This document shows, piece by piece, positions 45,908-47,294 of a DNA stretch of 47,294 bases. The stretch spans positions 1-47,294 of the forward strand of contig JAAETH010000122.1 in assembly GCA_024228575.1 (NCBI GenBank), written 5' to 3'. A program made the translations under genes and the position numbers. How positions within the stretch are numbered: position 1 is the stretch's first letter; each line of letters starts with the position of its first letter. This DNA comes from Actinomycetes bacterium (lineage in GTDB: Bacteria; Actinomycetota; Acidimicrobiia; Acidimicrobiales; Poriferisodalaceae). The notes beneath the pieces were generated by a model. It ran no database searches. It was not told the origin of the DNA and was given only the letters and a program-made list of their open reading frames with translations.

Positions 45908-46215
45908 TCGCGAAGTTCAGCCAGGAGCTCCGAGATCTCCGCCGGGTCCGCGCCAGCTACCGGTCGACTGGTGACGACAGGCCGGAAGGTGAAACGGTCT
46001 GGATCGCCGGCCGTGTCGATGAGGCTCTTGGCCAGAGCGTCAAACGCCACGCTGCCGTCCGGGGGAACCTCGACCGCGTCGGTCAAGATCGATTCGATCT
46101 CCGGGGGAATGTGGGGTTGAAGGAAGCCCGAGTCTGGTGATGTCTCACCCGCCGGATCCGGGTCGTGACCGATGAGGTCGACTTCGAAGGTCAGAAACGA
46201 TCCAACAAGACCCAC
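45904..46215 (-). CDS. Unknown small acidic protein, possibly 5'-truncated
   Basis: 103 residues from a GTG at 46215; an ATG at 46338 would add 41 residues (Cys-rich, Arg-rich) that look non-coding. The 3' part shows strong third-position GC, which supports a real frame. It opens VGLVGSFLTFEVDLIGHDPD, is rich in Pro, Asp and Glu, and ends EISELLAELRD. No family recognised. The absence of a convincing start next to the divergent DUF222 gene suggests it may be the remnant of a longer gene cut at its 5' side. Confidence 0.5.
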   Translation of the reverse strand: MGLVGSFLTFEVDLIGHDPDPAGETSPDSGFLQPHIPPEIESILTDAVEVPPDGSVAFDALAKSLIDTAGDPDRFTFRPVVTSRPVAGADPAEISELLAELRD

Positions 46216-46390
46216 GCGTTCACGACAGATCCTGAAGCGCTGCCGTATCGCAAGTCCAGCAACACTGCAGCAGTGTTGTCCTACCACCCCAAGGACTCTC
46301 CAATACTGGGGACTCGTACCAGAACCCAGAATTTCCACATCCTGTTGGTCGAGTGCGAGATGATTTCCTCAGATTTCCTCTCGTTTCTAT

Positions 46391-46426
46391 TTGTGATGGA
46401 ACGTATGTTCTGGTAGTGTTCTGTGG
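46391..46426 (+). promoter_or_regulatory. LexA-box-like operator within a leaderless promoter
   Basis: TTGTGA (46391-46396), a 17-base spacer, TAGTGT (46414-46419; a TAnnnT -10). The spacer contains GAACGTATGTTC (46399-46410), a perfect GAAC-N4-GTTC inverted repeat, the core of the LexA site of Actinobacteria and Bacillus. Seven bases after the -10 lies the GTG start of the DUF222 gene, so transcript and coding region would begin together. The genus Mycobacterium places LexA sites in front of 13E12 (DUF222) genes, which supports the reading. Confidence 0.55.
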
Positions 46427-47294
46427 GTGAGGGAAATGGTTGTGCCCTTCTATGGGGCCGAAGAACTCGACAACATGGAACGCCAGACACTCGACGCATT
46501 GTTGGGCCGTCAACGTTTCGTGCGGGCCCGCATCGATGGGCACGAAGCCCTGCTGTTGTCGGCTATCGACCGCGCCGACAGGCGTGCCGCTAGCTCCAAT
46601 CGCGGCAAACCCGACCCCGACGACGAAGAAACCCAGACCGGGGACTCCGGCGACCGGGGTTCGGGCAACGATGGAGATGAGGACGAGTCGACGCCGCCTC
46701 CGTCGCGAAAGGCTCAACGCGAAGCCGCTGAACGTGCCCGACGCTTGGAAACCCACCCCGACGTGGCTGCTGCGTTGGCCGAGGGTCGTATCAACACAGA
46801 ACAAGCAGACACGATTACCAAAGCCGACCTGCCAGCAGATGTGAAAGCCCGACTGCTCGACGACGCCTACGCCCAGGACGCAGACGAAACGAAGGACGCT
46901 GTCAGCCAAGCCGTCAAGGACGCCGACGCTGACAACGCGGAGAAACGTCTGAAGCGCCAACGCAAGGCACGCCGGGGAACGTGTGGCATCAACGACCAGA
47001 ACATGATCTGGATCAACGCCGAACTCGACCCCGTCACCGGTGCGGTCATCAAGGCCGAATACGACCGGCGCGAAAGCGCCGCCTACCACCACGCCATGCG
47101 CACCATCACCGACCGAGCCCAGCGCCGTACACACGCGCAGCGCCGAGCCGACGTCATCGCACCGCTGATCCTCGCCGGCATCATCCCCGCAACCGCCGCC
47201 CCAGATAACAGCACCAGCGAACTGGGCGGTACCCAAGGTCAGCTCACCCTCGTCGAAGATCAGCCCAACAAGACCGAAACTGGGACCGACAACA
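46427..47294 (+). CDS. DUF222/13E12-type HNH endonuclease-like protein (partial)
   Basis: The frame is open to the window end; 289 codons are visible. The GTG at 46427 (leaderless position) or ATG at 46436 is the start. An N-terminal helical block (RQTLDALLGRQRFVRARIDG) is followed by an acidic low-complexity linker (about 60-95), then the DUF222 core (RRLETHPDVAAALAEGRI with NTEQADTI, and later WINAELDPVTGAVIKAEYDR). A C-terminal HNH motif is expected beyond the window. These proteins are multicopy in Actinobacteria, often with an HNH nuclease, and several are DNA-damage induced. Their role is not settled; some are mobile-element linked. Confidence 0.75.
   Translation, partial: MREMVVPFYGAEELDNMERQTLDALLGRQRFVRARIDGHEALLLSAIDRADRRAASSNRGKPDPDDEETQTGDSGDRGSGNDGDEDESTPPPSRKAQREAAERARRLETHPDVAAALAEGRINTEQADTITKADLPADVKARLLDDAYAQDADETKDAVSQAVKDADADNAEKRLKRQRKARRGTCGINDQNMIWINAELDPVTGAVIKAEYDRRESAAYHHAMRTITDRAQRRTHAQRRADVIAPLILAGIIPATAAPDNSTSELGGTQGQLTLVEDQPNKTETGTDN

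Follow-up and report, generated by a model that had tools for sequence, protein, structure and literature searches.

The DUF222 gene at the end of the window (the whole stretch of 47,294 nucleotides analysed here) carries a promoter in which a putative LexA operator lies between the -35 and -10 hexamers. Control of this gene by LexA is well supported by sequence, and we put its probability at roughly 0.85. At least a dozen copies, this gene included, are dispersed in the genome, a 6.15-Mb draft of 960 contigs. DUF222 copies that lack the SOS box mostly carry a second promoter of damage type, TGTCNCACC-N7-TAnnnT. Actinobacteria, M. tuberculosis among them, carry DUF222/13E12 genes as a repeated family. 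In Mycobacterium such genes are known to be under LexA control.

Results

The promoter and the gene are composed of the following elements:

46391..46396, + strand: TTGTGA, predicted -35 hexamer, 17 nt from the -10
46399..46410, + strand: SOS box GAACGTATGTTC, putative LexA operator, 2 nt past the -35 and 3 nt short of the -10
46414..46419, + strand: TAGTGT, -10 hexamer, assigned by sequence and by conservation among copies
46427..47294, + strand: DUF222 gene with GTG start, assigned by its frame; the contig ends before the HNH part

The 17-nt spacer (46397-46413) reads TG, GAACGTATGTTC and TGG (2 + 12 + 3), so that the putative operator overlaps the core promoter, and seven bases separate TAGTGT from the GTG at 46427-46429. 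A sequence-only reading had described this arrangement, with the box centred in the TTGTGA/TAGTGT spacer, and every coordinate was confirmed by reading the sequence. It had also taken the interlocking of the three signals as an argument against chance. For the box on its own this does not stand: GAACNNNNGTTC occurs once in the window and 0.98 occurrences per window are expected by chance, and hence the box alone proves nothing and outside support is required. This expectation is also what speaks for the view that the box is a chance palindrome and the promoter unregulated. The claim does stand on enrichment across the genome and on the conserved box arms. The pattern GAACNNNNGTTCN{1,4}TANNNT is found at 25 sites genome-wide compared to 3 for the reversed-pattern control; 16 of the 25 sites precede DUF222/HNH genes, three precede recA, dnaE2 and imuA', and six lie elsewhere. 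In a comparison of 12 copies from the window's subfamily, the eight positions of the box arms show no pairwise differences (0/528), nor do the -10 positions (0/396), while the box centre differs by 15%, third codon positions by 17%, the less well conserved -35 by 18% and sequence further upstream by 48-68%. Invariant arms and an invariant -10 next to third codon positions that vary by 17% argue that both the operator and the -10 are under selection. Enrichment before one gene family, the apparent selection on the arms and the identity of the box to those at lexA and recA already contradict a chance palindrome, which we regard as very improbable.

The comparison with the recA and lexA promoters of this genome, which the sequence-only reading had named as the check, revealed the same box at both and not an unrelated one. 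The lexA promoter has several boxes of the GAACnnnnGTTC type, with GAACACTCGTTC, GAACGTTCGTTC and GAACTTTCGTTC in tandem plus further boxes with one mismatch, and lexA promoters of other genomes across the order have the same box, often in multiple copies. In the recA promoter, TTGAAA-C[GAACAGGCGTTC]GAGT-TACAAT, the box again lies within a 17-nt spacer. The predicted operator of the window is thus of the type found at the genome's own lexA and recA, as would be expected for a member of the LexA regulon. The promoters of imuA' (NF058630), TTGTCA-GTC[GAACTGATGTTC]GA-TAGATT-TGAGGG-GTG, and of dnaE2, ATC[GAACATCTGTTC]GA followed by TATTGT-TCGAGT-ATG, share the layout of the window, with the box in a 17-nt spacing and the start codon 6 nt past the -10. 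Matching boxes at lexA and recA and the shared layout at imuA' and dnaE2 support both LexA control and a leaderless start. By our own count, 48 of 66 DUF222 promoters have an in-frame start 6-7 nt past the -10; with its start at 7 nt the window gene falls within this range and is probably leaderless.

The frame from 46427 reaches the contig end as 289 aa. The protein matches Pfam DUF222 weakly (25.7 bits, above the cut-off of 24.4), and its paralogue C187 remains slightly under this cut-off (22.5 bits). Two paralogues are complete, C187 with 467 aa and C267 with 470 aa, and an HNH match (PF01844, 27.5 bits) was obtained for the C187 protein. The earlier designation as a putative HNH nuclease therefore applies to the full-length paralogues, while the window gene itself stops at the contig end and its own HNH part would lie past it. 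As judged from these matches, the window gene encodes a DUF222 (13E12-type) putative HNH nuclease with predicted nuclease activity. A search of NCBIfam with the DUF222 protein gave IscB as sole match, far under the cut-off; the sole PDB match by sequence was to the HNH portion of an IscB, PHROGs gave weak HNH-type matches and the PADLOC search found nothing. The copies are under purifying selection (dN/dS about 0.22, mean dS 0.43).

Two further elements lie upstream of the promoter:

46174..46284, + strand: transposase-gene remnant, called a transposase by eye, with 79% identity to a copy on contig C15 (L093) that appears to be fuller
46361..46390, + strand: T-rich stretch, left edge of the repeated unit, where homology of most copies stops about here

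For most pairs of copies, upstream homology ends some 25-50 bp ahead of the box, with longer sharing for C685/C686 (about 80 bp) and C122/C187 (about 115 bp). The transposase remnant sits directly upstream of the stretch that is common to the C187 copy. On the right side, similarity breaks off past ...PPWANP or at the stop codon: C846 and C521 agree in every base up to the TAG and differ beyond it, and copies related to C577 share sequence to just past the TGA stop and then diverge. Decay may account for some of the lost flank similarity, because the copies are old (dS about 0.43). A DNA search with C187 returned numerous left and right edges of the repeat, most of them at contig ends, as a repeat that breaks the assembly would give; a scan of genome contigs with the C187 paralogue gave one distant match. 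As far as these edges allow, the spread unit is a promoter plus an ORF that ends near the stop codon, with approximate boundaries. Downstream of the DUF222 stop, L307, L309 and L311 (contigs C20, C209 and C65) have about 80 nt in common that contain GC-rich inverted repeats, and differ from there on. At L024 (contig C787) a DUF222 gene is preceded by an apparently decayed SOS box, GAACACGTGGCC, with the promoter position unchanged.

The C577 gene is absent from the matching site in the sister genome G001, where the flank matches follow in the same order at about 59 bp, compared to about 1513 bp in the own genome; the ends of this empty site are imprecise, because identity in the alignment is near 70% and the closest match on the left flank is both short and weak. 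Copies with unrelated flanks, together with this one empty site at low identity, are what would be expected of a mobile or homing-like gene. Close relatives on phages or plasmids, as expected of a phage or plasmid gene, were not found in the respective searches, which gave one weak phage record and four weak plasmid records; among the viral contigs searched no relative of the DUF222 gene was confirmed.

For an order-wide census we sampled 100 DUF222 genes from the own genome and its relatives, with a readable upstream region in 97. Counting one-mismatch matches, 28 of these belong to the SOS class, 43 to the second class and 26 to neither, and hence 71 of the 97 carry one of two damage-type switches. 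The SOS class takes in five GTAC-armed boxes, a type seen in genome G050 and noticed after the first count. Reversed patterns gave no matches over the same 54 kb, and neither did the control for the GTAC variant. Promoter class changes at least seven times between labelled rows of the family tree, which was made by a quick method and has some long branches. The subfamily of the window (SOS) is sister to the G001 copies (second class, one labelled row) with a support of 96. Relatives differ in copy number: some have no match, others more than 20.

The second-class element in the form TGTCCCACC-N7-TAnnnT precedes the own-genome DUF222 genes L017, L022, L026 and L027, which have no SOS box, and also G001 L140 and L144, the sisters of the window subfamily. 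TGTCNCAC-N8-TANNNT occurs 28 times in the own genome compared to 2 control matches. A tighter form of the pattern has matches in 45 of 61 genomes, while its control gave 2 over all of them. Genes behind the element in the order include recA, uvrA and uvrB, and recA of the own genome has it downstream of its SOS promoter. Two WYL genes in tandem, similar to PafB-PafC, were also found, for which NCBIfam returned no name, and a PafBC-type regulator may read the second-class promoter. A DUF222-like HNH gene of a Rhodococcus plasmid has TGTCGGTA-N8-TATCAT beside a one-mismatch SOS box, a hint that both elements occur beyond the order. In L017, L022, L026 and L027 the -10 is separated from the ATG by 50-52 nt, and these genes are therefore probably not leaderless. 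The interval opens with an inverted repeat of varying sequence; such repeats after the -10 of second-class DUF222 genes are TTTCGCATACGCGAAA, TTTTGGCATACGCCAAAA and CTTTCGATCAAGGATCGAAAG. At L271 (genome G054, contig C10), at least five TGTCNCACCCC...TAnnnT elements follow one another in tandem at a spacing of about 47-98 bp.

Discussion

In the mechanism that we propose, LexA would occupy GAACGTATGTTC in the promoter spacer and thereby block RNA polymerase. RecA on single-stranded DNA would then lead to LexA self-cleavage and the promoter would open, with a transcript beginning at or beside the GTG. The presence of one of two damage-type promoters on most of the copies read across the order and the repeated change of class suggest that timing with DNA damage matters to the role of the DUF222/13E12 proteins. 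Our preferred reading, to which we nevertheless give slightly less than even odds, is that the DUF222 gene resembles in its behaviour a selfish or homing-like nuclease gene that is expressed while recombination repair is active; in this sense we infer the reason for the dispersal of the unit. A little more tentative is the wider notion that DUF222/HNH genes are selfish dispersed genes that need damage control for their spread and have repeatedly switched between LexA and PafBC-type regulons.

A different explanation is that DUF222/HNH proteins are ordinary host DNA-repair nucleases and that damage control simply reflects their repair job. They share damage-type promoters with recA, uvrA and uvrB, the copies are under purifying selection, and the mycobacterial 13E12 genes have been proposed as a substitute for mismatch repair (PMC4181829). 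However, a copy number between none and more than 20 matches among relatives, presence and absence at one site between sister species, and many copies with unrelated flanks do not sit well with a host repair function, and we consider it rather unlikely. Damage-induced suicide nucleases that serve programmed cell death appear improbable. Overexpression of the HNH DNase MSMEG_1275 of M. smegmatis is reported to cause chromosomal cleavage and death (PMC9416677), but this enzyme is reported to be under an ArsR regulator, and a genome could hardly maintain a suicide gene in more than a dozen copies. With these findings on the promoters, the old question of whether DUF222/13E12 is a repair enzyme or a selfish gene becomes testable.

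SOS control of HNH endonuclease genes is not new, since RecA-dependent induction of five putative HNH endonucleases has been reported in M. tuberculosis (PMC8151990), in line with the sequence-only reading, which had pointed to LexA-controlled 13E12 genes in Mycobacterium. The pattern of two regulons for DUF222 genes was not described in the literature that we searched, and no paper joining 13E12 with PafBC or DUF222 with SOS was found in this search, which had most subscription journals outside its reach. The LexA-regulated 13E12/HNH genes of M. tuberculosis are of the same HNH/13E12 type and have the same GAACnnnnGTTC SOS box (PMC8151990, PMC4181829). In contrast to these, the genes described here belong to another lineage and form many dispersed copies, the box lies within the promoter of an apparently leaderless gene, and other copies use the second class. 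A LexA-independent, PafBC-linked damage promoter of mycobacteria, tTGTCRgtg-N8-TannnT (PMC5656591), resembles the second class in its TGTC start and in the equal spacing to TAnnnT. There are differences as well, as the core is TGTCNCACC rather than TGTCRGTG and the regulator is a putative one; this PafBC-like class serves other DUF222 copies and not the gene of the window. REP13E12, found among the repetitive elements in a mobile-element screen (PMC10589994), is by its description likewise a repeated DUF222/HNH sequence, whereas the unit described here would consist of a promoter and a single ORF.
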